The translations under genes and the position numbers were made by a program. Shown here piece by piece: positions 33,642 through 57,006 of a DNA stretch of 64,000 nucleotides; position 1 is the stretch's first letter; each line of letters starts with the position of its first letter. Source of the stretch: DHVE2 group archaeon (GTDB lineage Archaea > Thermoplasmatota > Thermoplasmata > Thermoplasmatales > Aciduliprofundaceae); contig JALWRZ010000003.1 of the NCBI GenBank assembly GCA_026993785.1, positions 124,001-188,000 of the forward strand, read 5' to 3'. The notes below the pieces were generated by a model that had not been told where the DNA came from, searched no databases, and saw nothing but the letters and a program-made list of their open reading frames with translations.

Positions 33642-35015
33642 TTAAAGGATTTCGCGGAGAGTGCGTTCGATAATCTCTCCGGCGATGTTGATATGATCTT
33701 CCTCGATAACCAGTGGCGGGCGGAACCTTATTCCCTTGGCCCCGGTCTTCAGGGAGAGCAAACCGTTCTTGTAAGCTCTGGAGAAGAACTTGTCCCTAAG
33801 TTCCGTTGTGGCGAGATCAAAGGCATCCATCAGGCCCCTGCCACGCACATTGCTAACCGTGTCTGGGAACTTCTCCTCTATCTCATGGAGCATCTTTAGA
33901 ATGACTTCACCCATCTTGGCCGCGTTATCTATGAGATTATCCTCGTGAATTACTTCCAGAATCCTTGTGGCCTTCACCATATCCACTATGTTTCCTCCGA
34001 AGGTGGAGTTTATTCTGCTGGAGACCTTGAAGACATTGTCCTCAACTTCATCCACCTTGGGGCCGACCATTATACCGCAGACCTTCATCTTCTTACCGAA
34101 AGATATTATGTCAGGCTGCACATCGAACCATTCATGGGCCCACCACTTACCTGTGGTACCCACGCCGGTCTGCACCTCATCTATGATGAACATAATGTCG
34201 TTCTTTCTGCATATCTCCTGTACCTTCTGAATGTATTCTTTGCGGAAATGGTTATCGCCACCCTCACCCTGGATGGGTTCCATTATGAAAGCGGCTATAT
34301 CCTCGCCATATTTATCGATGGCTGCCTGTATCTCTTCCAGGCTCTTTTTCTCGAGCTCTTCCACTTTTTTAAGATTTTCACCCTCTAAGGGGAAGGTTAT
34401 CTTGGGATTCGTCACACGGGGCCACTCGAACTTGGGGAAGTACTTGGTTTTATTTGGATCGAAGGTGTTGGTGAGCGCGAGAGTATAACCGCTCCTCCCA
34501 TGGAATGCCTCGCGGAGATGAATGACCTTAAGCCTCTGGGTATTATCCCCCTTTCCCGCGGCTATATTTTTGCGAACCCTCCAATCGAATGCTGTTTTAA
34601 GGGCATTCTCAACAGCAAGGGCACCTCCAGAGACGAAGAAGAAATACTTGAAATAGGGTGGGGTGGCAAGCCTGGAGAGGGTATCCACAAACTCCGCAAA
34701 CTCCACCGTGTAGATATCACTGTTTGTAACCTTATTTATGGCGGTCCTCTGCAATTTCTTAAGGAATTCCGGCTCAAACATCTTGGGGTGATTCATTCCC
34801 AGCGCGCTTGTGGCGAAGAATCCAAAGAAATCGAGATAATATTTGCTGTGTCGGGCATCGTAGAGCCACAGCCCATGGCTTTTGTCAATGTCAAGCACCA
34901 TATCCAGGCCATCGGTCAAAATTCTTTCTCCTAAAATTTTATGAACTTCTTTGGGCGTTATCATACTCCACCCATGGCTGCCACGAATATATAGATTTTG
35001 GTTTTTATCTTCCAT
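33642..35015 (-). CDS. lat: L-lysine 6-aminotransferase
   Basis: This 457-residue class III PLP aminotransferase begins with the LAT-type signature 'VHKILGERILTDGLDMVLDIDKSHGLWLYDA' and 'YYLDFFGFFATSALGMNHPKM'. The PLP region 'FIIDEVQTGVGTTGKWWAHEWF' and the Schiff-base Lys in 'ISFGKKMKVCG' are intact. LAT moves the epsilon-amino group of lysine to 2-oxoglutarate, giving 2-aminoadipate semialdehyde. The gene stands alone, with a TATA box at 35031-35042 about 24 bases before the ATG. A lysine-6-dehydrogenase-like gene at 54792 could make the same product. Confidence 0.88.
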   Translation of the reverse strand: MEDKNQNLYIRGSHGWSMITPKEVHKILGERILTDGLDMVLDIDKSHGLWLYDARHSKYYLDFFGFFATSALGMNHPKMFEPEFLKKLQRTAINKVTNSDIYTVEFAEFVDTLSRLATPPYFKYFFFVSGGALAVENALKTAFDWRVRKNIAAGKGDNTQRLKVIHLREAFHGRSGYTLALTNTFDPNKTKYFPKFEWPRVTNPKITFPLEGENLKKVEELEKKSLEEIQAAIDKYGEDIAAFIMEPIQGEGGDNHFRKEYIQKVQEICRKNDIMFIIDEVQTGVGTTGKWWAHEWFDVQPDIISFGKKMKVCGIMVGPKVDEVEDNVFKVSSRINSTFGGNIVDMVKATRILEVIHEDNLIDNAAKMGEVILKMLHEIEEKFPDTVSNVRGRGLMDAFDLATTELRDKFFSRAYKNGLLSLKTGAKGIRFRPPLVIEEDHINIAGEIIERTLREIL

Positions 35016-40082: not shown

Positions 40083-41192
40083 TTATTTTGCCTCACGCAG
40101 AGCCTTGCTCACATTTTTCAAGCCTTGCTCAAGCTCCTCCTCGCTCGGCCATCCAAAGCCCAGGCGGAAATAAAGGTCGTCCATGTTGAACCAGTGCCCT
40201 GGAGCAAGGAAGGTTCTGTATTTTTTCCTCAGAATGGAATAAAATTGAGGGGTTATAACTCCAGCTGTCTTCTTGATTCTTGGGAAACAAACTGCACCGC
40301 TTTTTGGAGGTATCCATTCCACGAGTTCTTCCTCTTCTATCCATTCTTCAACAATTTTCAGATTCCTTTTCACGTGCTCTATATTTTTCTTTAAAAGCTC
40401 CTCCCTTTTCAAGACCTGGAGGGCAATCAATTCATCCACCACGGAATTGCAGATATTGATCTGCTCCTTGGTGGCTATGAACTGCTTCATAAGCCCTCTA
40501 TCTTGGGTGAGCAACCATCCAATCCTTATTCCTGGAGTTCCGTATGCCTTGGATAGGGAGCTCACGCTTATGGCATGGTGTGAAAGAGAAGCAGCGGAGG
40601 GTAACTTCTTTTGGTAGCTCAATTCCCGGTACGTTTCATCCATTAGAAGATAGCATCCGCATTCCTCAACAAGCTCCAATATTTCCTTTAGCTCATCCTC
40701 GCTTATCATGGCTCCTGTGGGATTATTGGGATAGGTAATACTCACGAGCTTAGTATTTGGGGATATGAGGCTTCTCAGCTCATCCATATCAAGCTCGAAG
40801 TTTTTCTCAAATCTCAAACTCAGCAGTTTTTCATTGCATCCCAGGGATTTGGGTACCTCGTAATTGGAAGGGTAATTGGGATGAAGAACTACAACCTCAT
40901 CACCGGGCTTTAGAAGCGTTGCCTCCACCACAAACAGGGCCTCGGCTGCACCATTAGTAACGAGTACATCCTCGCCAGAAATATTTGGATAATGGGATGC
41001 GATTATCTCTCTCAATTCTTCATTTCCCCCGTGGGGACCATACGATAGAAGAAGTTTCTTAAGGGAATTTGCGTTCACAAAAAGCTCCAGGGGTTGATCT
41101 GGCACGGAGCTTTCCGCGAGATTGTAAACAATTTTTTCATACCCGAACTCCTCTGGGGACTCCTTTTCTATGGCCATTCTTCGGAACCACAT
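40083..41192 (-). CDS. Class I/II PLP-dependent aminotransferase
   Basis: 369 residues of fold-type I: 'NLAESSVPDQPLEL', 'YGPHGGNEELREIIA', 'VTNGAAEALF', 'YPNNPTGAMIS' (Asn contacting PLP), 'LLMDETYREL' (Asp and Tyr), the Schiff-base Lys in 'SSLSKAYGTPGIRIGW', and Arg in 'YFRLGFGWPS'. The substrate cannot be read. It is convergent to the AcoX-like gene and divergent from the corrinoid cluster. The start at 41192 (TG-rich MWFRRMA) is uncertain; ATG at MAIEKE is equally possible. Confidence 0.85.
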   Translation of the reverse strand: MWFRRMAIEKESPEEFGYEKIVYNLAESSVPDQPLELFVNANSLKKLLLSYGPHGGNEELREIIASHYPNISGEDVLVTNGAAEALFVVEATLLKPGDEVVVLHPNYPSNYEVPKSLGCNEKLLSLRFEKNFELDMDELRSLISPNTKLVSITYPNNPTGAMISEDELKEILELVEECGCYLLMDETYRELSYQKKLPSAASLSHHAISVSSLSKAYGTPGIRIGWLLTQDRGLMKQFIATKEQINICNSVVDELIALQVLKREELLKKNIEHVKRNLKIVEEWIEEEELVEWIPPKSGAVCFPRIKKTAGVITPQFYSILRKKYRTFLAPGHWFNMDDLYFRLGFGWPSEEELEQGLKNVSKALREAK

Positions 41193-41326: not shown

Positions 41327-42385
41327 ATGCGGAGAGTAGCCATAATAGGGCCTAAAAAAATAGCAAGCATCGTTGCAAAATTTTTGGAGGGGCAGGAGGT
41401 GGAAATCCGCGTTTTTTCGGAGGAGATATTATTCCAGGGGGATGCAGCGGGAGAAATAGGTGGAGATGTTGTGATAATCGTAGCCCTGTGGGGTGAGAAG
41501 GGATACGAAGCGCTCTTAAATCTTGTAGGGAATAGAGTGAATGTAATATCTCTATTTCCCTATACGGTAGGAAGAGAAGAGATTCATAGGGTGGCCCTGG
41601 AAAACAATGCAATTGTGATACTTATTCCCGCTTCCTTCTGGGGCCTCGCTCACCTGCTGATTGGAGCGGCAAGAGCGATGCTTGGAAGAATCAATGAGCT
41701 TTGCCTATATGGGGGTAATATTGCAGCCAATTTCAATCCCCATCTTTTGATGACTGCAGGGTGGAATACTCAAGAATTTATTGAAATTTATAGGAGGCCT
41801 GCAAAATTCATTTTAAGCGGGTCTATCGTTCTTCTGGATCCCTTGGAAAGCTATGTCGGGAGGATAAATATCAAGGGCGTAGGTGAGCTCGAATATTTCC
41901 CCGTGGATGCTCTTACCCCTGTATTGGATAGTTTCCCCAACCTTCGATTTGCCCGGAGCTATGCCCTGAACTGGCCCGGCCACTGGGAATTTATGAGGGG
42001 TCTTAAAAAGAGGGGGTTGCTTCCAGAAGCCCCTGGGAAGGGAGAAGCCAATAGCTATTTAAAGGAGCTCCTCGAAAAAAATGGGGCGAAGGAGGAGGAT
42101 ATACACATTCTACTTCTGGAAGCATACAGAGGGAGAAAGGGTGTTAAATTCCTGCATGTGGCGAGAGCTGGGGAGACGGGGAGAGCATTTGAATTGGTGA
42201 TGGGTATTTTCATTGCATCATTGGCCTGGAAGCTTCTTGAAGGTAAGATATCCCAAAAAGGGGTGGTCTTACCCCATGAGTTAGGGTTCAGAGAAGAAAT
42301 CTCTGTGCCGATCTTGGAAAATTTCGCGCTTAATGGAATACCCGTAAAGGAAGAGTTTATAACAAGAAAAAAGGAGGTGATGTGA
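41327..42385 (+). CDS. Saccharopine-dehydrogenase-like protein with degenerate NAD loop
   Basis: 352 residues. The C-terminal part has the saccharopine/lysine dehydrogenase-type substrate domain ('SYALNWPGHWEFMRGLKKRGLL', 'GETGRAFELVMGIFIA', 'GVVLPHELGFREEI'). The N-terminal Rossmann strand reads 'RRVAIIGPKKIASIVAKFL', where the usual G-x-G-x-x-G/A turn has become G-P-K-K-I-A, so nucleotide binding may be lost or altered. Its stop (ATGTGATG) overlaps the start of the corrinoid protein gene, a strong sign that it works in the same pathway. It could be a structural or regulatory partner rather than a dehydrogenase. Confidence 0.65.
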   Translation: MRRVAIIGPKKIASIVAKFLEGQEVEIRVFSEEILFQGDAAGEIGGDVVIIVALWGEKGYEALLNLVGNRVNVISLFPYTVGREEIHRVALENNAIVILIPASFWGLAHLLIGAARAMLGRINELCLYGGNIAANFNPHLLMTAGWNTQEFIEIYRRPAKFILSGSIVLLDPLESYVGRINIKGVGELEYFPVDALTPVLDSFPNLRFARSYALNWPGHWEFMRGLKKRGLLPEAPGKGEANSYLKELLEKNGAKEEDIHILLLEAYRGRKGVKFLHVARAGETGRAFELVMGIFIASLAWKLLEGKISQKGVVLPHELGFREEISVPILENFALNGIPVKEEFITRKKEVM

Positions 42386-43137
42386 TGAGTGCCAAGAGTG
42401 CAGAAGAGGAAAAGAGGGAAAAGGAGCTATACGATGCCATAGTAGATGGGGACGAGGAACTGGCAGTCGAGGCAAGCAAAGCGCTGGTGGAAGAATTCAA
42501 GAGGGACCCCAGAGATGTGCTCAACAACGTGATGTTGCCTGCGCTTAGGTATGTGGGCGAGCTTTACGAGAAGGGTGAGTATTTCATAGCGGATATGGTA
42601 ATCTCGGCTGAAGCGTTTAAAAAAGCCATGAACGAAGTGATATTACCTCTTTTCCGTAAGAATAAAGAGAGCTCGGCACGCATAGTATGCGTATTCGGTA
42701 CCGTACAGGGAGATATTCATGACCTTGGAAAGAATTTGGCTGCGAGCATATTTACGTCGGAGGGCTTTGAGGTCATAGACTTGGGCACAGATGTTCCACC
42801 GGAAAAATTTGTAGAGAAAGTTAAAGAAACATCTGCGAAGGTTGTCGGGTTGAGCGCCCTAATGACCACCACCATGCCCAACCAAAAGAAGGTCATAGAT
42901 TATCTGAAAGAGAGCGGTTTGAGGAATAATGTGATAATCATCGCCGGTGGTGCACCTATAACGGAGGAATGGGTCAATGAGATAGGCGCGGATATCTGCG
43001 GTAATGATGTTTTTAAGGCTCTTAGAGAGGTCAAGGCACTGCTGGGTCTCGAGGTGTTGTCCCAAACCGCAGAAGAGGGAGAAAAGGTCATGGTTAAGTC
43101 GGTAAAGAGAGGTGGTGACAAAGATGCCGCTTCCTGA
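42385..43137 (+). CDS. Methyltransferase cognate corrinoid protein
   Basis: About 250 residues, the MtbC/MttC/MtgC type: a four-helix cap (about 15-100), then the B12-binding Rossmann domain with the Co-ligating His in 'GDIHDLGKN' near 112, 'GLSALMTTTM' and 'IAGGAPITEEW'. It shuttles a methyl group between the substrate methyltransferase and an acceptor. ATG 42385 follows AAGGAGGTG. It overlaps the MttB-like gene by 14 bases, giving a 1:1 pairing of methyltransferase and corrinoid protein. Confidence 0.92.
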   Translation: MSAKSAEEEKREKELYDAIVDGDEELAVEASKALVEEFKRDPRDVLNNVMLPALRYVGELYEKGEYFIADMVISAEAFKKAMNEVILPLFRKNKESSARIVCVFGTVQGDIHDLGKNLAASIFTSEGFEVIDLGTDVPPEKFVEKVKETSAKVVGLSALMTTTMPNQKKVIDYLKESGLRNNVIIIAGGAPITEEWVNEIGADICGNDVFKALREVKALLGLEVLSQTAEEGEKVMVKSVKRGGDKDAAS

Positions 43138-44566
43138 GGTATCCATCCTAACTAAAGAGGAAAAGGAGCTGATTCATTCCAAAGCTCTGGAACTTCTAGG
43201 AGAAGTAGGGATGAGAATAAGAGATCCTGAGATAGTGAAGTTTCTGCTGGATGCTGGGTGCAAGAGTAAGGATGAGAAAAGGGTAATATTCCCCGAGTCT
43301 CTTGTGGAAGAGTCGCTAAAAACGGTGCCGAAAAAGTTCACACTTTACAACAGGGAAGGAGAAGTAGTGGCAAATCTAGGTGAGGGAACGAGAATATTCG
43401 CGCCGGGTTCTGCGGCAATAAAGATTCTGGATTTTGGAGCTAAAGAGCCCCGTTTGCCATTGCTATACGATTTGAAAAATCTTGTGATTCTAGTGGACTC
43501 TCTTAAAAATATAGAGGCCCAGAGCACAGCTCTTGTGCCTGATGATGTACCCAATGCTATAAAGGACGCGGTAAGGCTATATGTGATTTTGAAATATTCC
43601 AACAAGCCTATAGTGACCGGTGCATTTACCATAGAGAATTTGACGTTGATGTTCGAAATGATGAAGGCAATACGAGAGGATTACGCAGAAAAACCCTGGG
43701 CTATTTTTGATGTAACTATTTCTTCCCCCCTTACCTGGAGCGAAATTACTGTGAGAAATCTTTACGATCTCTCTAGGGAGGGAATTCCTGCAGAGATAAT
43801 CTCCATGCCTCAGATGAGTGCAACGAGCCCCGCGACTATTGCCGGTAGTCTTGTGCTCCATCATACAGAGATACTGAGCGGTATCACCATATCACAACTG
43901 ATTAATCCTGGTGCACCCGTGATATATGGAGGCTCCACAGCCATATTACAGCCCAACTTTGCATTGCCATTGATCACGGCACCAGAAAGCATACTTCTTG
44001 CCTGGTCTTACCGCGAAATGGCCCGATATTTAGGCGTACCTGCGCACACCTATTTAGGCTTGAGCGATAACAAGGTGATAGATTACCAGGCGGGAGCTCA
44101 GAGCATGTACTCTGCACTGGCCGCCGTGGTTGGAGGATTCGATATAATCTCGGGTCCTGGAATGATGGAAAATGAGCTTGTTCAGAGCTTGGAGAAGCTT
44201 GTGCTGGATAATGAAGCTGCAGGAATGGTGAAGAGAGTGTCCCAAGGCTATCAAATGGGAGAGGAGCAGCTGGCTGTGGACATAATAAAGAAAGTGGCGG
44301 AGCTGGATAAGCATGAGTTCTTATCCCAGAAGCATACCAGGAAGAATATCAGAAAAGAGTTCTATTTCCCGGACCAAAATATATGGGATGTTTCCTCCCG
44401 CGACAGGTGGGATGGTCAAGATTCCCTGCACCGTGCCCATACGATGGTGGAGAAAATACTGAAGGAATATGAGCCCCATGTTCTTCCATCGGATAAGCTT
44501 GAAAAGCTCAATAGTGTATATGAGAAACTCTGGAACAAAATCTCGGAGAAGCCAAAATACGTGTAA
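43124..44566 (+). CDS. MttB-family methylamine/betaine:corrinoid methyltransferase, without pyrrolysine
   Basis: About 480 residues, full-length MttB superfamily: 'HSKALELLGEVGMRI', 'TGAFTIENL', 'SPLTWSEITVRNLYDL', 'YGGSTAILQPNFALPL', 'SDNKVIDYQAGAQSMY', 'GGFDIISGPGMMENEL'. The frame has no internal stop, so unlike methanogen MttB it lacks pyrrolysine and belongs with the glycine-betaine/proline-betaine/carnitine demethylases. The true substrate is unknown. Preferred start is ATG 43124 with GAGGTGG upstream; GTG at 43112 or 43115 also fits. The ferredoxin-type activator gene follows by 18 bases. Confidence 0.9.
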   Translation: MPLPEVSILTKEEKELIHSKALELLGEVGMRIRDPEIVKFLLDAGCKSKDEKRVIFPESLVEESLKTVPKKFTLYNREGEVVANLGEGTRIFAPGSAAIKILDFGAKEPRLPLLYDLKNLVILVDSLKNIEAQSTALVPDDVPNAIKDAVRLYVILKYSNKPIVTGAFTIENLTLMFEMMKAIREDYAEKPWAIFDVTISSPLTWSEITVRNLYDLSREGIPAEIISMPQMSATSPATIAGSLVLHHTEILSGITISQLINPGAPVIYGGSTAILQPNFALPLITAPESILLAWSYREMARYLGVPAHTYLGLSDNKVIDYQAGAQSMYSALAAVVGGFDIISGPGMMENELVQSLEKLVLDNEAAGMVKRVSQGYQMGEEQLAVDIIKKVAELDKHEFLSQKHTRKNIRKEFYFPDQNIWDVSSRDRWDGQDSLHRAHTMVEKILKEYEPHVLPSDKLEKLNSVYEKLWNKISEKPKYV

Positions 44567-44583
44567 AGGAAAAGGTGTAATTG

Positions 44584-46341
44584 GTGCGCACTGGAATGCA
44601 TAGAATAAAGTTCATTCCCGATGGAAAGGAGATATTCGCAGAGGAAGAGGAGAGTGTATTCAGCGCGGCAATGAAAGCCGGAGTGGATACAGGCGGTGTT
44701 TGTGGGGGCAGAGGATTCTGTGGCAAGTGCAAGGTAAGAATAATAGGAAAAGTTACACCTTTAACTCCTGCAGAAAAGAAGTTTCTCACAGAGAAAGAAG
44801 TGAGTGATGGGATAAGACTCGCGTGCCAGGTTCATCCCCTTGGAGATATAGAAGTCATCTCCATGTATAATAAAATAGTGAAACTTGCAAAGATGGGCTA
44901 CGAGCCGGATATTCCTCTGAATCCTGCAGTATCTTTGCAAATTTTAAATGGAAAAGCAGCGGTAGAGTACTGGCGCGATGGCCATAGGGAAACACTGGAG
45001 ACTATTGAGCTAAAAGATGGGGATAAAATTTATGGACTTGCCGTGGACATTGGTACCACCAAGATAGTGATTTATCTGATGGATTTGATTACGGGAGAAA
45101 TACTACTCACCAATGCCGATGAGAATCCCCAGACCATTTTCGGTGCCGATGTTATGACCAGGATAATGAAATCCCTTGAGCTTGGTGTGGATAAATTGCG
45201 CAGGATGCTTATAGCCCATCTCAACCGCAAGCTACTTGATTTTGAAAGAAGAGGAATTGAGAGGGCAAGAATCTACGAGATTGTTGTGGTTGGAAACAGT
45301 GTGATGCATCACTTTTTTGTGGGCAGAGATGTTAGACCCCTGGCATACTCGCCCTATAAATTGAAAAAGAAGGAAGCAGAGTATATCCCGGCGAAAGAGC
45401 TAAAATTAAGAGTAAGCGCCCATGCTCACGTATATCTTCCCCCGTTGGTGGAGAGCTTTGTAGGATCCGATTCCCTGGTAGGAGCATATCTTATGCGTTA
45501 CAAATCCGCTAAGAGATATATATTCATAGATTTGGGTACCAACGCTGAGGTATTTTTATCCTATGAAGGAGGTATGCTGGCAACCTCAGGTCCTGCAGGC
45601 CCGGCATTTGAAGGAATGAACATAAAATATGGAATGCGTTCGGCGGTGGGAGCCATAGAGGGAGTTGCCATAGATCCTGAAACGCTGGAGCCCAGTATAA
45701 AGGTTATAGGAAACACAAAACCCTGTGGTATCGCAGGCTCCGGTCTCATAGATGCTGTTGCAGAGATGCTCAAGAATGGAATCATAGATTACGGTGGCAG
45801 GTTCAGAGTGAAAAATCATCCCTACATTCGGGAAGAAGGGGGCAAATTGGAATATATCCTTTCAAAGGATGGCTGCGATGGAAAGATTATAACACTCACC
45901 CAGAAGGATATAAGGGAATTACAGCTTGCCAAGGCAGCTGTTCAAACTGCAATACACATGCTCTTAAGAAAGGCAGGACTAAGCTCCATGGATATGGAGA
46001 AAATTTATGTGGCTGGGAGCTTTGGACTCTATATTAATCCACAGAATGCAATGTTTATAGGACTTTTGCCTGAGGTGCCCTTGGACAGAATTGAGCTTGT
46101 GGGCAACACTGCAGGTTCAGGAGCTAGGATACTTCTCAAAAACAGAGATGTAAGGGAGGATCTGGAGAATTTTGCCAAGAAGGTGCAGCATGTGGACCTG
46201 GTGAGAGAAAGCGATTTTCATGAAATTTTTATTAATTCCACGTATCTTCCCTCAGGATACGTTGAGGATTATCCGGGAATTATAAAGACCCTGGAGAAGG
46301 TGCTGGGTAAGCCCAGAATTAAAAAAGTCAAAAAGATGTGA
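44584..46341 (+). CDS. Corrinoid activation protein (RACo/RamA-like, 2Fe-2S + ASKHA, DUF4445)
   Basis: About 585 residues. N-terminal plant-type [2Fe-2S] domain with 'GGVCGGRGFCGKCKVRI' and a fourth Cys in 'RLACQ', a linker, then an ASKHA ATPase with 'GLAVDIGTTKIVIYL' near 155, 'IDLGTNAEVFLSY' near 315, 'CGIAGSGLIDAV' and 'VAGSFGLYINPQNA'. Such proteins use ATP to reduce inactive Co(II) corrinoid back to Co(I), in keeping with the two genes before it. GTG 44584 is 6 bases after AAAGGTG; ATG 44596 begins the conserved part. It ends four bases from a convergent methyltransferase gene. Confidence 0.9.
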   Translation: MRTGMHRIKFIPDGKEIFAEEEESVFSAAMKAGVDTGGVCGGRGFCGKCKVRIIGKVTPLTPAEKKFLTEKEVSDGIRLACQVHPLGDIEVISMYNKIVKLAKMGYEPDIPLNPAVSLQILNGKAAVEYWRDGHRETLETIELKDGDKIYGLAVDIGTTKIVIYLMDLITGEILLTNADENPQTIFGADVMTRIMKSLELGVDKLRRMLIAHLNRKLLDFERRGIERARIYEIVVVGNSVMHHFFVGRDVRPLAYSPYKLKKKEAEYIPAKELKLRVSAHAHVYLPPLVESFVGSDSLVGAYLMRYKSAKRYIFIDLGTNAEVFLSYEGGMLATSGPAGPAFEGMNIKYGMRSAVGAIEGVAIDPETLEPSIKVIGNTKPCGIAGSGLIDAVAEMLKNGIIDYGGRFRVKNHPYIREEGGKLEYILSKDGCDGKIITLTQKDIRELQLAKAAVQTAIHMLLRKAGLSSMDMEKIYVAGSFGLYINPQNAMFIGLLPEVPLDRIELVGNTAGSGARILLKNRDVREDLENFAKKVQHVDLVRESDFHEIFINSTYLPSGYVEDYPGIIKTLEKVLGKPRIKKVKKM

Positions 46342-46345
46342 GGGA

Positions 46346-47368
46346 CTATCTCTTTTGGGCCCAATCTCTGGCAGCCTTGACAATCATCTTGATATTTTCA
46401 GGTTTGGAGTGGGCAGGTACATCGCATCCACTGCTCAAAATGTGTCTAATTCCCTGGGTCTTTTGCAAAGTTTCCATGCTTATTTTATACACATTCTCCG
46501 CGGTGTCTGTCTGCAATTCTACGGTTCCCACATTACCAAGAGAGATTATTTTCTCATTTCTTTTCAGCGGTTCTGCGATATCCACCTGCTTATCTATGCT
46601 CAAAATATGGACCCCGGTATCAAGCATGGAGTTCAAAAGATGGTTCGTATCCCCACATATGTGGAGGGCAGATAAGATACCTCTCTTGTTTATGTGAGCA
46701 GCCAAATTCATCAGGAATTTTTTAACGGTGGAATCGAACATACGGGGGGAAAGCAAAGCACCCACAGGCTCAAGGATCATTATAAGTTCTGCGCTGGAAT
46801 CCATCAGGGCATCTATATAGAGTTGAACAATTCTGGACGCCATTTCCATCAGTTTTACAATATGTTCGGGATCTCTCTTTACCTTCTTCAGGACCTTGGT
46901 GACACCGAATGTCTGGGATAGCAGGGTAAGGGGCCCTGATACATATGCCGCTATAAGAACATCTTCAAGATTTTCATGCATCAAATTGACCGCGTCGAGA
47001 TTCGCTTTTATTCGAGGGAAATCTAAGAATGAGGATAGTCCATTTTCTAGAGTTTCCTCCGCATTCTCGTAAGGCAAGGTGGTGCCTACGGAAGGCACCC
47101 CGCCATCCCAGAATACTTTTGCTCCTAGGGCTTCAGGTTCCAGTGTGAGATCCATAAAGTTGAATAGAATGTAGAGATCGTAGAAAGATGCTGCTTTGAT
47201 TTGGAGCTCTGCCATCAGTTTCCCATTATTTGCCGCATCCTGTATCTTCTTGTTGAAGAGTATGGCGGAATGAAATCCCACAAGGGGCGAAGACACTATA
47301 TTTTCGCAGCTTCCGTTTTTGACAACTTCAAATACGCAATCCTTTTTTGTAAGCCCCATACCTGGCAT
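46346..47368 (-). CDS. UroD-family methylcobamide methyltransferase (MtaA/MtbA-like)
   Basis: About 340 residues. The TIM-barrel UroD/MtaA family has a zinc site: 'ALHICGDTNHLL' gives His and Cys near 240, and 'LSSGCDVP' near 318 gives the third Cys, as in methylcobamide:CoM methyltransferases. It also has 'PLVGFHSAIL' and 'YVSGPLTLLSQTFG'. It would take the methyl group from the corrinoid protein to a thiol or other acceptor. The frame is open to 47536, but a TATA-like TTTTTATG near 47400 and the family length favour ATG 47368. It faces the activator gene convergently. Confidence 0.82.
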   Translation of the reverse strand: MPGMGLTKKDCVFEVVKNGSCENIVSSPLVGFHSAILFNKKIQDAANNGKLMAELQIKAASFYDLYILFNFMDLTLEPEALGAKVFWDGGVPSVGTTLPYENAEETLENGLSSFLDFPRIKANLDAVNLMHENLEDVLIAAYVSGPLTLLSQTFGVTKVLKKVKRDPEHIVKLMEMASRIVQLYIDALMDSSAELIMILEPVGALLSPRMFDSTVKKFLMNLAAHINKRGILSALHICGDTNHLLNSMLDTGVHILSIDKQVDIAEPLKRNEKIISLGNVGTVELQTDTAENVYKISMETLQKTQGIRHILSSGCDVPAHSKPENIKMIVKAARDWAQKR

Positions 47369-47549
47369 ATAGGGGCATCGGTTAATAAGGATTTCGAAAA
47401 AGAGCATAAAAACTATGCGTGGGTTACTGTTAAATTCAAATATGGAGAAATACATAAAAATCATATCAATAATAAACGATGAAATCTTTAGTTTACATCC
47501 CAATTTCACCGAAAAATTTTTAAGGAGATAGTTCATATCTTTCCCCCGT

Positions 47550-49178
47550 ATGCCTGAAAAAGAAGAAATCTTTGTGAGGAGGGCATCAGGGCTTGTCAGA
47601 GAACTCAGCTGGTTTGACGTACTTATCTGGTCTTTGGCAGGACCTGCAGCGTCAGGTATGACATACTATGCTGTGAAAATGCTTGGTGACCCCACGGCAT
47701 ACGGGGGCAACGAGGTTCTGGCATTTTTCCTGGCGGGCCTGATGTTTCTACCCATAGTGATTGCAGCAATGGCCATAGCATCCTCTTTTCCGAGGTCCAG
47801 CTCCCTTTATGTCTTCGTTTCCAGAGTTGTGCACCCAATAGTGGGCTACATACCGTTCTGGTACTATGTGGTGATGAGCCTAACGCTATCTGCGGGCTTC
47901 TTGATGGTTCTGGGGATTAAAGCCATGGCGGGTGCATTTGCGGTGGCAGCCATAGGGAGTAACGACACGCATCTATTATCTATTGCAAAAACCTTAACGC
48001 ATCCAACCACGGGCTTCTACATTTCGGTGCTGATGATTGTGATCCTATGGATCTTCAACTACTTCGGTGTGAAGACAATAAAATGGAGCATGAGAATAAT
48101 AACAATAATTCCTCTGACAATCACCATCTTTGTACTGGGTGGAATGGCCTTTGAGGGACCCAATGCAGCAATGCATGGCTTTGACAAGATATTCGGTGCA
48201 GGAGCAGCTCAGCAGGTGATGAACGCAGCCTTCAAGGGTGGTACCTACTTCGGCACCTCAATAGACCCACTTGTCTCAGTGGGTGTGGGAATGGGTACCT
48301 ATGGAATGCTTCTATGGACTCTCTGGGCCTGGACCGCGCTGGAGACCGTGACCTTCGTGGGAAGCGAAGTTAAGAACCCAGGTAAAAGCTACATAAAGGG
48401 TTACATTGCAGGATGGATAGCAGTGCTTATCCTCTATTTGGTAAATGCTGCAGTGGTCCCATGGTCCGGCAACTACGATTTCCTTGCTGCTTACTCATAT
48501 CTGGCTGGCAACTATCCGGATGTTCTCACTAAGATGTTCCCAGTATTCCAGGGAATGTATCCACCTGCAGGATCAGTACCTTTGGTTGCTGCGTTGATCT
48601 GGCCGACACCTGCTATAGCTATTACCATAGGTATCGCGTATTTCCTGTGGTACTTCAACACCTCGGCAGTTCTGTGGGTAGGTGCAGTGAGAGGTCTCTT
48701 CTCCATGGCCTTTGATAGGCTTCTCCCAGAGAAGATGACCCATGTGTCAGCAAGATGGGCTGCACCAACCTGGGCAAATCACATCACTTTCCTTTTGGCC
48801 TTCCTGGGTGCACTTCTGGGTCTACTTGATTCCATGGGTTCAAATCTTGCTACTGGCGCGCTGGCAGTGCTTGATTTCGGCGGTCTGATATTCGTTGCAC
48901 CTGTAGGTCTTGCACTTCTGATGCTGCCGTGGTGGAAGCCCGAGCTTTACAAGAGAATGACAGTTCAGTCCAAGGGACTGCTGGTTACCGTTGGTGTCAT
49001 ACTGTTCATACTTGGCTGGTGGATGCTGCTGTTCACCGCCTACTACGATGCCACCATACAGCTCATGAATACTCTTGTGGCAGCCATAGGTATCATAGTG
49101 TTCGTTGCCATGGTGGCGATCAACAAGAAGAAGGGTATACCGGTAGAAAAGGTATTCTCCGAAATACCCCCAGCATAA
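47550..49178 (+). CDS. APC-family amino acid/polyamine permease
   Basis: 542 residues with 12-13 membrane helices. The first, 'LSWFDVLIWSLAGPAASGMTY', carries the unwound Gly-rich helix TM1 of APC transporters, and 'WAWTALETVTFVGSEVKNPGKSY' is the TM6 signature. It imports an amino acid or amine. Its place beside the corrinoid genes suggests that it takes up their substrate (inference). TATA-like AAATTTTTAAGG near 47513-47524 is about 28 bases before the ATG. Confidence 0.88.
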   Translation: MPEKEEIFVRRASGLVRELSWFDVLIWSLAGPAASGMTYYAVKMLGDPTAYGGNEVLAFFLAGLMFLPIVIAAMAIASSFPRSSSLYVFVSRVVHPIVGYIPFWYYVVMSLTLSAGFLMVLGIKAMAGAFAVAAIGSNDTHLLSIAKTLTHPTTGFYISVLMIVILWIFNYFGVKTIKWSMRIITIIPLTITIFVLGGMAFEGPNAAMHGFDKIFGAGAAQQVMNAAFKGGTYFGTSIDPLVSVGVGMGTYGMLLWTLWAWTALETVTFVGSEVKNPGKSYIKGYIAGWIAVLILYLVNAAVVPWSGNYDFLAAYSYLAGNYPDVLTKMFPVFQGMYPPAGSVPLVAALIWPTPAIAITIGIAYFLWYFNTSAVLWVGAVRGLFSMAFDRLLPEKMTHVSARWAAPTWANHITFLLAFLGALLGLLDSMGSNLATGALAVLDFGGLIFVAPVGLALLMLPWWKPELYKRMTVQSKGLLVTVGVILFILGWWMLLFTAYYDATIQLMNTLVAAIGIIVFVAMVAINKKKGIPVEKVFSEIPPA

Positions 49179-51094: not shown

Positions 51095-51886
51095 ATGGAT
51101 AGGCTATTCAATCGTGTACTAGTGAGACCTCCCGGGGAGAGCTATAAGAGATGCGTATCCACAAATCCCATGCATCACACAATAGATGTATCTCTGGCAA
51201 AGAAGCAGCATAGGGAGTATGTTAAGATATTGAGAGAGAATGGCATAGAGGTGATAGAACTTCCAGTGCTGGAAGATCATCCAGATAGCGTGTTTGTGCA
51301 GGACACCTCAATAATAGGAGAATCCTCCAAGACTGCCGTGCTCTGCAGATTTGGAGAACCCTCGAGAAGGGGTGAAGAGAGGAGTGTGAAAGAGTATCTC
51401 AAGAAAGAGGGTTTTACAACTATTGGGATTAAAGCGCCGGGCACGATAGAAGGCGGAGATGTTTTGGTGACCGATGCAGGTGTGGTTTTCATTGGCGAAT
51501 CCGTAAGAACGAATCCTGAGGGGATAAGACAATTTGCGGCCGCCCTCCCTCATGTTAGGGTTGTGAGCATAAAACTTACCAAGATATTCCATCTCCTTTC
51601 CGGCGTGAATTATCTGGGCAAGAAAAGAATCGCGATATCTCCCCATGTGGTTGATCCCTCCTATTTCCAGGGATTTAAACTTATAGAGATACCCGAGGAT
51701 GAGCTTTACGCCAACAACATGCTGTATTTGGGTGAAGAAAGAGTTCTCATACCCGCAGGATACCCCAAAACTAAGGAAAAGCTAAAGAGGCATGGATTCA
51801 AGCCGATAGAGGTGAATGTCTCGGAGTTCTGGAAAGGTGACGGAGGCGTAACCTGTCTTAATTCGCCGTTTTATTTGCCTCTTTAA
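51095..51886 (+). CDS. DDAH-family guanidino hydrolase, copy 1 (probable citrulline-forming enzyme)
   Basis: 263 residues, the length of dimethylarginine dimethylaminohydrolase, not of arginine deiminase (about 400). The triad fits PaDDAH closely in position: Glu119 in 'TIEGGDV', His166 in 'IFHLLSG', Cys254 in 'GDGGVTCLNSPF'. 'EERVLIPAGYP' and '[12 protein letters not shown]' are also family hallmarks. Members hydrolyse a substituted guanidinium to citrulline. Being followed by a carbamoyltransferase and carbamate kinase, it most likely feeds citrulline, from arginine itself, into ATP synthesis (inference). It follows the nucleotidyltransferase-like gene by 12 bases. Confidence 0.82.
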   Translation: MDRLFNRVLVRPPGESYKRCVSTNPMHHTIDVSLAKKQHREYVKILRENGIEVIELPVLEDHPDSVFVQDTSIIGESSKTAVLCRFGEPSRRGEERSVKEYLKKEGFTTIGIKAPGTIEGGDVLVTDAGVVFIGESVRTNPEGIRQFAAALPHVRVVSIKLTKIFHLLSGVNYLGKKRIAISPHVVDPSYFQGFKLIEIPEDELYANNMLYLGEERVLIPAGYPKTKEKLKRHGFKPIEVNVSEFWKGDGGVTCLNSPFYLPL

Positions 51887-51940
51887 TTTGCAACAAGAAT
51901 AAAATGCGAGGTCTTTAAAATGAATAAAAGAGGGGATAGT

Positions 51941-52903
51941 ATGGAGTATAATTCGAAGGTTTGGAGAGATTTTAAGTTTCAAAAGCATCGGAATTTTCTA
52001 TGTCTTCAGGAATACAGTCCAGAGGAAATCGAAGCAATAATAAAGGTATCAGAGCAGATGAAACTGTGGGAAATGCTGGGAGAGGAGCATCATGTGCTGC
52101 GTGGCAGGACCATGGCTATGCTCTTCCAGAAGCCATCCACAAGAACCAGGGTGAGCCTGGAGGTGGCGATGTATCAATTAGGTGGATATGCCCTATATCT
52201 CAATGCCCAGGAACTGCAACTCCGGCGTGGTGAGACCATTGCAGATACGGCGAGGGTTCTAAGCGGGTATGTGGATGCCATTGCTGCCAGGGTGTACTCC
52301 CATCGGGATGTGGAAGAACTGGCAGAGTATAGCAGTGTACCGGTAATCAATGCCCTGAGCGATTTCTCGCATCCCACCCATGCACCAGCGGTGTTTATGA
52401 CCATCAAGGAAAAACTGGGTAGAGTTAAGGGAATAAGATACGTGTATGTGGGGGATGGAAATAACATGTGTCATTCCCTCATAGTAGTTGGAACAAAATT
52501 AGGTGCGGAGGTGGTGGTTGCCACACCCGAGGGCTATGAACCTGATTCAAAGGTTATAGAGTGGGCAGAGAAAAACGCTGCAGAGAGTGGTGGAAATTTT
52601 GAACTGTTGCATGATCCGGTAAAGGCCGTTAAGAATGCGGATGTGATTTACACGGATACCTGGGTTTCCATGGGTGATGAAGCTGAGGCAGAAGAAAGGA
52701 GAAAGGTATTTGCACCTTTTCAGGTTAACAGAAAACTTGTGATGCATGCTACGCCAAATTACCTGTTTATGCACTGTCTTCCTGCGCATAGGGGGGAGGA
52801 GGTTACCGATGAGATAATAGATTCAGAGCACAGCGCCGTGTGGGATGAGGCGAGAAACAAGCTACCGGTTCAGAAGGCCATACTCTCCCTGGTAATCCCA
52901 TAA
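51941..52903 (+). CDS. argF: Ornithine carbamoyltransferase-like enzyme with altered HPxQ motif
   Basis: About 320 residues: '[12 protein letters not shown]' binds carbamoyl phosphate, '[12 protein letters not shown]', '[16 protein letters not shown]' is the SMG ornithine loop, and '[10 protein letters not shown]' holds the catalytic Cys. The second carbamoyl-phosphate motif, usually HPCQ, reads His-Pro-Thr-His ('[10 protein letters not shown]'). In this setting it would run citrulline + phosphate to ornithine + carbamoyl phosphate. I prefer ATG 51941, preceded by AGAGGGG; ATG 51920 is the upstream option. Carbamate kinase follows by 11 bases. Confidence 0.85.
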
Positions 52904-52914
52904 GAGGGGGTTTA

Positions 52915-53874
52915 ATGAAAAAGATACTTGTAATAGCCCTTGGTGGAAACGCCATTCTTCAAAGAGATGAGAGGGGCACCTTTGAAGAGCAGATGAACAA
53001 TGTGAAGCATGCCATGGCTCAGGTTGCTGAGATCATTTCCCGATTCAGGGAATATCAGGTGGTTCTAAGTCATGGAGGAGGTCCCCAGGTTGGTAACGTG
53101 CTGCTTCAGCAGGATGCTGGAAACACGCTCTACGGGATACCGCCGCAGCCCATGCATGTTTGTGCGGCCATGGCCTACAGTCAAATAGGGTATATGATGC
53201 AGCAAACCCTCACAAATGAGCTGAAAATGAGAGGTGTGGATACTCCTGTGGCTACCATACTAACCCAGACCGTGGTGGATATAAATGATCCTGCGTGTAA
53301 AAAACCATCCAAGCCAGTTGGGCCCTTTTACGATGAGACCACGGCTAAAGAAATGGCCATAAAAATGGGGTGGAGTGTAATCGAAGACGCTGGAAGGGGA
53401 TGGAGGAGAATAGTTGCATCTCCAGAACCCAAGGATATCGTGGAGAAGGAAATCATCAGGGCACTGGTGGCAAGAGGCTTTACTATAATTGCCGCAGGAG
53501 GCGGGGGTATCCCTGTGATAAGGGAGAATGAAATGATAAGGGGAGTGGATGCCGTAATCGATAAGGATTTGGGTGCCGAGAAACTGGCAGAAATTGTTGA
53601 GGCAGAAGTTCTTATGATTCTCACCGATGTAAATGGCGCAGCTCTTCGTTATGGGAGTTCCGAGGAAGCATGGCTCGGTGAAGTGTCCCTGAAAGAGCTT
53701 AAGAGGTATTACGAGGAGGGTCATTTCAAATCCGGCAGCATGGGTCCCAAGGTTTTAGCCGCAATAAAGTTCTTAGAGCATGGTGGAAAAAGGGTCGTGA
53801 TAGCCTCCCTGGATATGGCTGTGGATGCTCTAAAAGGCAAAACGGGTACGCAGATAGTTCCTGGAGGTGTTTAA
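52915..53874 (+). CDS. arcC: Carbamate kinase
   Basis: 319 residues: '[21 protein letters not shown]', '[12 protein letters not shown]', '[10 protein letters not shown]', '[14 protein letters not shown]', 'LTDVNGAAL', and '[28 protein letters not shown]'. It makes ATP and bicarbonate/ammonia from carbamoyl phosphate and ADP, the energy-yielding last step of arginine fermentation. AGAGGGGG lies 5-6 bases before the ATG. The second DDAH-family gene overlaps its end by eight bases. Confidence 0.95.
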
Positions 53875-54682
53875 GACGGACAGACTTTTTGATATGGCCA
53901 TAGTCCGTCCTCCTAGCAAAAGTTATTTGAATTGCGTATCTAGCAACCCTCATCGGAGTAAAATAAATCTGAATCGGGCAATAAGACAGCACAGAGAATA
54001 TAAGAAAATTTTGCAGGAGCATGGAATAAGGGTAATAGAATTAGAGCCCTTGGAAGAATATCCCGATAGCTGTTTTGTTCACGATGCCGCGCTGATTGCC
54101 TATGAAAGAAAGATGGTAATTCTCCACAGATTTGGGATAGAATCTAGAAGAGGAGAAGAGCGCTCTATCGAGGAGTTTTTCAGAAAAAATATGCCGGAGA
54201 TGGAGATAAAGAGAATTGAAGCTCCAGGTATTTTAGAGGGTGGCAATATTGTGGTTACGGATAGAGACCTTATATTTGTGAGCGAAACTCCACGAACAAA
54301 TAGGGGAGGGATTCATCAGCTTTCCAGATTTTTGCCCGATATGGAGATAAAACGCATACCTCTCTCAGGAGATAATCCCCTTCTCTTCCATCTGCAGGCC
54401 GTGTGCCAGTATTTGGGAAATGAAACGGTAGTACTAACTTCCCAGTATGTTAATCCAAAATTTTTCCGTGGATTCAATATAATAGAGATTCCTCCAGAGG
54501 AGCTTTATGCCAATAACATGATTAATCTCGGAAAGGGCAAGATCCTCATACCTCAGGGGTATTCCCGCACCGCAAAGCTTCTTGAAAGAGAAGGCTACGA
54601 AACGATAGAGATAGACATCTCCGAGTTCTGGAAGGGAGATGGAGGCCTTACCTGTCTATTTTTACCATTTTTCAGGATTTAG
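53867..54682 (+). CDS. DDAH-family guanidino hydrolase, copy 2
   Basis: 271 residues, a paralogue of the protein at 51095, with Glu124 in 'ILEGGNIV' (EGGN rather than EGGD), His175 in 'LLFHLQAV' and Cys263 in 'GDGGLTCLF'. The triad is intact but the first motif, the active-site flap ('[11 protein letters not shown]') and the C-terminus differ, so the two copies may prefer different guanidino compounds, for example arginine against a methylated arginine or an intermediate (inference). The GTG start lies inside arcC, after GGAGGTG. The next gene has its own TATA and ribosome site. Confidence 0.8.
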
Positions 54683-54791
54683 GATAAAATCTTGCAACAA
54701 AATTCCCTTTTCTGGGCAAAATATTCAAGGAGGAAAGTTTAAATAATTCCTCAGGCATATCTTCCGCCGTCTGAAAGGAGTGTGATAAAAA

Positions 54792-55922
54792 ATGAAGGTT
54801 ATAGTATTAGGCGGAGGGCTTGTAGGTGGACTCATTGCCAGGGACCTTGCCAAGGATTTTGAAGTGACGGTGGCTGATGCGAGCAAAAAGAGAATAGAAG
54901 AACTTAAAAAAGAGGGAATAAATGGAATCGTAGCTGATTTATCCAAACCGGAGAACATAAAGGAAGTTGTAAAACCCTATGATCTCGTTGTAGGAGCATT
55001 GCCGGGTTCTCTGGGGTATATGATGCTCCAGGCGGTGATAGAGGCAGGGAAAAACATCGTTGATATCACCTTCACCCCGGAGAATACCTTAGAGCTGGAT
55101 CCCCTTGCCAAGGAAAAGGGTGTGACCGCTGTTGTGGACATAGGGGTTGCTCCTGGAATAAGCAATCTCACTGTTGGATATGCGGACAGCCAGCTGGATA
55201 AGACGGAGAGCGTTCTCATTCTGGTAGGCGGATTACCTGTAAAGAGGGAATGGCCCTATGAATACAAGATAGTTTTCTCTCCCTACGATTTGCTTGATGA
55301 GTATCTTCGTCCTGCCAGGGTTGTGGAATGTGGCAAGATAGTTGTGAAACCTGCTCTTTCGGAAGTTGAGCTTGTGGAGCTTCCCGAGATAGGTACCCTT
55401 GAGGCGTTTAACACGGATGGACTGAGGAGTTTGCTCTACACAATAAAAGCTCCTACGCTTAAGGAGAAAACGCTTCGTTATCCCGGCCATGCGGAGAAGA
55501 TGAGAATGCTCCGTGAAACAGGATTTCTGAGGAAGGATTTTGTGGAGGTAAATGGCGTTAAGGTGAGACCCATAGATCTGACGGCAAAGCTGCTCTTTCC
55601 CATGCTTGAATTGAAAGAGGGAGAGATGGAATTCACGGTGCTTCGGGTAATTGTGGAGGGCATTAAGGACGGAAAGAGAATGAGATACACCTACGATCTC
55701 CTGGATTACTATGATAAGGAGAAGAAGGAAACTTCCATGGCGAGAACCACAGGATTCCCGTGTGCAATAACGGCAAGGATAGTGGCTAATGGGGAGTATA
55801 GAAATCCAGGCGTGAATCCTCCAGAGTATCTTGGAAAGCATCCCGAGATATTCAGAAAGATATTGGAAGAGCTGAAGAAGAGGAATGTTGTGGTGAAAGA
55901 GAAGGTGGAAGTTATAGAGTGA
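54792..55922 (+). CDS. Saccharopine dehydrogenase family, lysine 6-dehydrogenase-like
   Basis: 376 residues: intact Rossmann loop 'VIVLGGGLVGGLIARDL', 'VADASKKRIEEL', 'VVGALPGSLGYMMLQA', 'NIVDITFTPE' and 'VVDIGVAPGISNL'. The architecture matches bacterial L-lysine 6-dehydrogenases, which deaminate the epsilon amino group with NAD+. Its neighbours concern ornithine, so a diamine acid such as ornithine or its racemised form is an alternative substrate. TATA-like GTTTAAATAATT near 54735 and AAGGAGTGTGA before the ATG suggest its own promoter. The racemase gene starts one base after its stop. Confidence 0.82.
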   Translation: MKVIVLGGGLVGGLIARDLAKDFEVTVADASKKRIEELKKEGINGIVADLSKPENIKEVVKPYDLVVGALPGSLGYMMLQAVIEAGKNIVDITFTPENTLELDPLAKEKGVTAVVDIGVAPGISNLTVGYADSQLDKTESVLILVGGLPVKREWPYEYKIVFSPYDLLDEYLRPARVVECGKIVVKPALSEVELVELPEIGTLEAFNTDGLRSLLYTIKAPTLKEKTLRYPGHAEKMRMLRETGFLRKDFVEVNGVKVRPIDLTAKLLFPMLELKEGEMEFTVLRVIVEGIKDGKRMRYTYDLLDYYDKEKKETSMARTTGFPCAITARIVANGEYRNPGVNPPEYLGKHPEIFRKILEELKKRNVVVKEKVEVIE

Positions 55923-55923
55923 G

Positions 55924-57006
55924 ATGAGCAGTGGGTATCCCAGGATCGAGATAAATCTTCCTGCCATCGAGGAGAACGCTAGGAAGCTTGTAAGCTTCGG
56001 AAAGGATAGAGGTTTCCAGATTGCCGGAATCACCAAGGGTGTTTGCGGAGATATCAAAATCGCGCAGGTCATGGTGGATTCGGGCATAGAAATTCTTGGC
56101 GATGCAAGGATTCAGAATATAAGGAGATTGAGAGAGGCGGGAATAAAAGCGAAATACATGCTAATCCGGGAGCCCATGCTTAGCGAAATTGAGGATGTGG
56201 TGAGATACGCCGATTATTCTGTGAACTCGGAAATATCAACCCTGAGAGAAATTTCAAGAATTGCTCGAGAACATGAAAAGCTACACAGTGTTATAGTCAT
56301 GGTGGATGTGGGTGACAGAAGGGAGGGGCTCCTTCCCTCCCAGGTGGATATTTTTCTTGAAAAGATAAGGGAACTACCAGGTATAGAGATCGCAGGCTTT
56401 GGGACAAACATGGGCTGCTTTGGAGGTGTGCTACCCACCTATGAAAATCAGAAAAAATTGGTGGAAATAGGAGAAAGAGCACAGAAAATTCTTGGGTATG
56501 ATGTGGAGATAATTTCCACGGGAGGTACTGTCGTTCTTTCTTTAGCCGAAAAGGGACAGCTACCTGAAGGCATAAATCAGATGAGAATAGGGGAAGCCAT
56601 ACTTCTCGGGACATCCACCACAGACAACAGAGTAATTTCCTGGCTCCGACAGGATACCTTTACCATAAAAGCGGAAGTGATAGAGCTCAATGAAAAACCC
56701 TCGCTGCCAGAAGGTCCCCGCGGCCTGGATGCCCTGGGAAGGGAGAAAAAATTTGAGGATAGGGGGATAAGGAAAAGGGCCATCGTGGCTCTTGGTGCCC
56801 AGGATGTGGAGATAGATGGTTTGGAGCCTCTTTCTCCCGGGCTGGAGATTCTGGGTGGTAGTAGCGACCACATAATTCTCGATGCGCAAAATGCAGAGAT
56901 ATCTGTGGGAGATGTGGTATCCTTCTCTTTAAAAAGGCCCTATCAGTACACGGTTATGCTGAGAGCCATGACCTCTCCCTATGTGGAGAAATTCTATATT
57001 TCCTGA
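55924..57006 (+). CDS. orr: Alanine-racemase-fold amino acid racemase, ornithine racemase-like
   Basis: 360 residues of fold-type III PLP enzymes: 'PRIEINLPAIEENARKL', the PLP Lys in 'GITKGVCGD' near 38, 'NSEISTLREI', 'VMVDVGDRREGLLP', 'GFGTNMGCFGGVLP', 'ISTGGTVVLSL' and 'INQMRIGEAILLGTS'. The GDRREG and TN.GC.GG pattern is that of ornithine racemase (Orr) of amino-acid-fermenting clostridia. It would turn L-ornithine, the product of the preceding carbamoyltransferase, into the D form, or act on lysine. No aminomutase genes are visible. Tightly coupled to the dehydrogenase upstream. Confidence 0.78.
   Translation: MSSGYPRIEINLPAIEENARKLVSFGKDRGFQIAGITKGVCGDIKIAQVMVDSGIEILGDARIQNIRRLREAGIKAKYMLIREPMLSEIEDVVRYADYSVNSEISTLREISRIAREHEKLHSVIVMVDVGDRREGLLPSQVDIFLEKIRELPGIEIAGFGTNMGCFGGVLPTYENQKKLVEIGERAQKILGYDVEIISTGGTVVLSLAEKGQLPEGINQMRIGEAILLGTSTTDNRVISWLRQDTFTIKAEVIELNEKPSLPEGPRGLDALGREKKFEDRGIRKRAIVALGAQDVEIDGLEPLSPGLEILGGSSDHIILDAQNAEISVGDVVSFSLKRPYQYTVMLRAMTSPYVEKFYIS

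Follow-up and report, generated by a model that had tools for sequence, protein, structure and literature searches.

This locus raises the question of how the arc pathway, classically formed by ArcA, ArcB and ArcC, might be entered in an archaeon whose ornithine carbamoyltransferase (OTC) and carbamate kinase (CK) genes are flanked by two DDAH-like cysteine hydrolases, DDAH1 and DDAH2. Within the window, the stretch of 64,000 nucleotides analysed here, all four genes of the cassette are intact, contiguous and on the same strand, in the order originally predicted (Table 1). DDAH1 and OTC are separated by 33 bp, and OTC and CK by 11 bp, while the first 8 bp of DDAH2 are also the last 8 bp of CK; these short gaps and the overlap argue for a functional unit, the genes of which are probably co-transcribed. 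The reading favoured here, with a probability of about 0.58, is that of a horizontally acquired, catabolic arc-type cassette with a DDAH-type entry step, yielding ATP via citrulline.

Table 1. Genes of the cassette, its neighbours and the third DDAH-like gene (window coordinates unless a contig is given)
Feature	Position	Strand	Evidence or context
APC-family amino acid permease, upstream of cassette	47550..49178	+	family search
DDAH1, DDAH-like cysteine hydrolase, 263 aa, triad E119/H166/C254	51095..51886	+	ORF, profile and PDB matches
Cassette OTC (ornithine carbamoyltransferase), 327 aa	51920..52903	+	TIGR00658 434.6 bits
Cassette CK (carbamate kinase), 319 aa	52915..53874	+	TIGR00746 406.6 bits
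DDAH2, DDAH-like cysteine hydrolase, 271 aa, GTG start, triad E124/H175/C263	53867..54682	+	
Saccharopine/lysine dehydrogenase-like	54792..55922	+	PDB 3abi (PH1688) E 1.8e-72
Ornithine-racemase-like PLP enzyme (Orr family)	55924..57006	+	NF040742 394.6 bits, below cut-off 480
Third DDAH-like gene	contig 3: 265503-266270, ~87 kb away		beside cysteinyl-tRNA synthetase-type gene

The host genome (1.66 Mb, 99.84% complete) contains no ArcA. The search for arcA elsewhere in the genome, proposed with the original prediction, used the arginine deiminase (ADI) family and matched only DDAH1, DDAH2 and the third DDAH-like gene, and a sample of 293 genomes from the phylum gave a single ArcA-like match, below the cut-off and in a genome of another family. 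OTC and CK each occur twice in the genome, once in the cassette and once as a copy common to the family, and there is a separate, complete arginine-biosynthesis set: the second OTC, together with ArgG, clustered with LysX-type genes, ArgH, CarA and CarB. As the anabolic set is complete without the cassette, the latter appears to be extra, and most likely catabolic; the cassette CK was considered as an anabolic source of carbamoyl phosphate, and this is ruled out by CarAB. Hence the idea that DDAH-type hydrolases replace ArcA had the right frame, with no ArcA and an extra OTC and CK beside a complete anabolic set. Its claim to be the first such replacement in an archaeon is weakened by the arginine synthetase ArcE, which already substitutes for ArcA in Thermococcales, where arginine is broken down with a gain of ATP (PMC13260591). 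A search of the genome with the ATP-grasp family PF02655, made as a guess at ArcE and without bearing on that enzyme, returned only LysX-type and PurD-like proteins.

The assignment of the two hydrolases to the DDAH type was borne out. In the PDB, Pseudomonas aeruginosa DDAH (3rhy) is matched at E 8e-48 by DDAH1 and 3e-42 by DDAH2, and the proposed catalytic residues are present and align with its triad. The structure of DDAH1 as modelled with AlphaFold2 (mean pLDDT 94.8) had P. aeruginosa DDAH as its top structural match in Foldseek (TM 0.87-0.90), followed by human DDAH1 and ArgZ, then by amidinotransferases and arginine deiminase. Both proteins combine a Cys/His/Glu triad and a DDAH-like pentein fold with a length inside the ~255-280 aa range of DDAHs, well short of the ~400 aa of ArcA, and they score just 54.5 (DDAH1) and 31.4 bits (DDAH2) against the cut-off of 489.1 for the ArcA model TIGR01078. 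The NCBIfam equivalog cut-offs for dimethylargininase were also missed by far (188.6 against 340 and 165.2 against 450 bits), meaning that sequence settles the family of these enzymes, and not their substrate. The third DDAH-like gene, which is itself conserved across the family of the host, encodes Asn where P. aeruginosa DDAH has D60, carries the motif HLGG and falls in a separate clade.

The phylogeny of the two copies that the original prediction had called for places DDAH1 and DDAH2 in one archaeal clade (97/94), sister to canonical DDAHs, with the DDAH1 of this genus nested in a Thermococcus-containing group (99/90). Of 94 sampled Thermococcus-order genomes, 10 carry an orthologue of DDAH1 and one other a partial gene; orthologues also occur in MAGs of Methanomethylicota, Culexarchaeota, Baldrarchaeota and Thermoprotei. 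Identity to Thermococcus OTCs is 71% for the cassette OTC (75% on a partial match), against 54-59% for the copies of its own family; for the cassette CK, the figures are 64-66% and 46-50%. Horizontal acquisition of the cassette is the best explanation. In Thermococcus, OTC and CK are known to degrade citrulline (PMC13260591), and their closeness to the cassette enzymes supports the catabolic reading.

The cassette is genuine, and rare as an archaeal version of the arc pathway. Just one more OTC-CK-DDAH2 cassette was found, on a 4-kb contig binned as 'bacterium' (JALTIG010000099.1), probably a mis-binned relative, with 92, 84 and 84% identity to the OTC, CK and DDAH2 of the window. No DDAH gene adjoined OTC or CK among the best 30 loci from a 390-genome sample of the phylum, DDAH1 mostly not being beside them in other genomes, and a literature search that lay mostly outside subscription journals found no report of an archaeal DDAH gene clustered with both.

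In the proposed pathway, DDAH1 and DDAH2 would act at the guanidino carbon of a substrate of the arginine type, giving citrulline and an amine. The cassette OTC would then phosphorolyse citrulline to ornithine and carbamoyl phosphate, from which, with ADP, the cassette CK would form ATP, CO2 and ammonia; the ornithine may next be used by the dehydrogenase-like and racemase-like enzymes encoded alongside. The direction of flux, the substrate and the fate of ornithine are those that we infer. Arginine fermentation as such is known in archaea, through ArcA in Halobacterium (PMC5052871, PMC13260591), an ADI pathway in Ferroplasma (PMC5473848) and ArcE in Thermococcus (PMC13260591). Compared with the classical systems, such as arcRACB of Halobacterium or an operon on a Roseovarius plasmid, the cassette has clustered OTC and CK genes of the same families, and the reactions predicted to lead from citrulline to ATP are shared as well, whereas the place of ArcA, with its HxD motif, is taken by the two smaller DDAH-type hydrolases, and the active sites of OTC and CK are altered. 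The ArcE-ArcB-ArcC system of T. kodakarensis likewise swaps ArcA for another enzyme and has an OTC and CK close to those of the cassette (PMC13260591), although its first step, by ArcE, is energy-conserving, whereas DDAH-type hydrolysis is not. Were the favoured reading true, DDAH-type enzymes would be a third entry, after ArcA and ArcE, to the energy pathway through citrulline, ornithine and carbamoyl phosphate. A DDAH-like fold also serves arginine breakdown in cyanobacterial ArgZ/AgrE (Foldseek E 3e-20), but this is a bifunctional protein of ~700 aa with 24% identity. It yields ornithine directly, so OTC and CK are not needed.

What the hydrolases act on is best approached through their guanidino pocket. 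With P. aeruginosa DDAH they share ~37% identity and, besides fold and triad, the arginine-anchoring residues: DDAH1 and DDAH2 each retain the equivalents of its D60, D66, R85 and R132, and residues of this type contact the amino, guanidino and carboxylate groups (PMC11659421). The difference lies at its E65 and K164. These are Gln and Leu in DDAH1s (Q69 and L168 in the window; Gln and Met in one case) and His and Gln in DDAH2 (the latter being Q177, two residues past H175), rather than the Glu with Lys, Thr or Ser of canonical DDAH sequences (Thr or Ser in archaeal DDAH-like genes) or the Arg and Asp of an archaeal ArcA-like protein, which has the motif HLD. In arginine deiminases, an Asp two residues past the catalytic His stabilises the guanidino group, whereas DDAHs have Lys at that position, making room for the dimethylamino group (PMC11659421); the window enzymes have HLL (DDAH1) and HLQ (DDAH2). 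To judge from these alignments, the pair of residues at 65 and 164 looks like a specificity switch, and the window hydrolases fit neither of its known states, so that neither known specificity would be predicted for them. The P. aeruginosa gene itself stands in a ddaH-ddaR-antiporter locus for methylarginine catabolism, and in the bacterial loci examined the neighbours of ddaH are a basic amino acid antiporter and either DdaR or a sigma-54 regulator, with no adjacent OTC or CK.

The alternative that survives best, though an unlikely one, is that the DDAH-like enzymes are arginine deiminases, which convert free arginine to citrulline and ammonia as the non-orthologous first enzyme of an ordinary ADI pathway, used perhaps for acid resistance besides ATP. 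Such a role would suit a genome without ArcA, in which the rest of the cassette equals ArcB and ArcC, and it is consistent with the retention of the residues that bind arginine by its alpha-amino and carboxylate groups, with the loss of the DDAH Glu/Lys pair, and with the ADI pathways of related acidophilic archaea (PMC5473848). However, Leu and Gln stand in place of the HxD Asp, and Thermococcales, among which DDAH1 also occurs, use the ATP-conserving ArcE for free arginine (PMC13260591), so that a wasteful hydrolysis of arginine would be of little use there. The free-arginine option offered in the original prediction is thus not established, as the HxD Asp and the DDAH Glu/Lys pair are both missing. 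The clade of the hydrolases, the lost deiminase Asp, and the breakdown of arginine by ArcE in Thermococcales, where DDAH1 also occurs, instead favour methylarginine. Hence the most likely substrate, at even odds, is an N-methylated arginine from digested protein, with free arginine rather improbable and another guanidino acid more so. If the substrate is a methylated arginine, a protein modification would be used for energy by archaea living on the protein debris of hydrothermal vents. The clade also supplies natural, probably heat-stable variants with which to study the choice between arginine and methylarginine in guanidino-modifying enzymes.

Poorer still are the prospects of the view that a different guanidino compound is the substrate of the hydrolases, with OTC and CK being mere neighbours or engaged in another carbamoyl transfer. 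In Phaeobacter, a DDAH-family gene lies directly 3' of a 5-guanidino-2-oxopentanoate decarboxylase gene (L130:2321-4762), so the family does serve other guanidines, and this arrangement suggests that some proteins annotated as 'arginine deiminase family' act on 4-guanidinobutanal or a derivative. The lack of an adjacent OTC and CK beside DDAH1 in most genomes points the same way. Against this stand the invariance of the positions that receive the alpha-amino and carboxylate ends of arginine, the ornithine motif DxxxSMG retained by the cassette OTC, and the functional unit to which the short gaps and the overlap point.

The cassette OTC and CK are clear members of their families, scoring above the respective cut-offs of 280.85 and 358.25 bits, and the OTC has the STRTR, DxxxSMG and HCLPA motifs. 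It nevertheless has HPTH for HPCQ and ARNKLP for AENRLH. Of the 70 columns conserved to 95% or more in 24 other OTCs, 10 are changed in the cassette OTC, against a median of one altered column when each reference was left out in turn. All 10 changes are identical in the second cassette copy (JALTIG010000099.1), the sole other one found. Among them are Q154H, within the HPxQ motif, and R314K, close to the C terminus, at positions that correspond, when matched by motif, to Gln140 and Arg328 of Mycoplasma penetrans OTC, which are listed in the carbamoyl-phosphate pocket (PMC3474736), meaning that the usual Gln and Arg of this pocket are absent. The cassette CK has HGGGPQVG for HGNGPQVG (N55G), where all 22 references have Asn, and its QPMD..SQG segment is altered too; the other cassette copy shares the active-site changes of the CK as well. 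The CK changes are weaker evidence, as its altered columns (6 of 64) are within the range of divergent CKs, and the HGNGPQ loop is said to touch phosphate via its backbone (PMC3474736). The OTC changes could reflect use mainly in the catabolic direction, or a fit to an N-substituted carbamoyl group, and the altered sites of both enzymes could signify another substrate or reduced function. A dedicated methylarginine fermentation that keeps the methyl group on the carbamoyl moiety, running from N-methylcitrulline via N-methylcarbamoyl phosphate to ATP, CO2 and methylamine, and in which the hydrolases, the OTC and the CK are each adapted to that N-methyl group, is very improbable.

Downstream of the cassette, the dehydrogenase-like gene, with its own TATA-like site (TTTAAATA at 54738), possibly encodes an enzyme acting on ornithine. 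In most DDAH1-bearing Thermococcus genomes, DDAH1 is convergent with a homologue of this dehydrogenase (~40%), and on a contig from the same genus as the window a racemase homologue directly follows DDAH1; this recurring company suggests that DDAH1 feeds ornithine-type metabolism. An ornithine aminomutase, sought to explain the racemase, gave no match, and neither did the control. The APC permease is kept upstream of DDAH1 in another locus and is a possible importer of the substrate, and Thermococcus DDAH1 is near an NhaC-type antiporter in all checked loci whose contig extends far enough.

Further upstream, at 42382-47536, lie genes for a corrinoid protein, an MttB-like methyltransferase, a RACo-type reductive activator and an MtaA-like methyltransferase (minus strand), a cluster probably for demethylation of quaternary amines or methyl compounds; the MttB-like gene has no in-frame stop, and so no pyrrolysine. 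The passage of released methylamines to this cluster was considered, and nothing was found tying it to the operon. Another diamino-acid catabolic gene, for L-lysine 6-transaminase, is at 33642-35015 on the minus strand (TIGR03251 639.9 bits, above cut-off). A PLP enzyme at 40083-41192, on the same strand, is akin to two families with hydroxyarginine as substrate, GntC and capreomycidine synthase, with all matches below their cut-offs.
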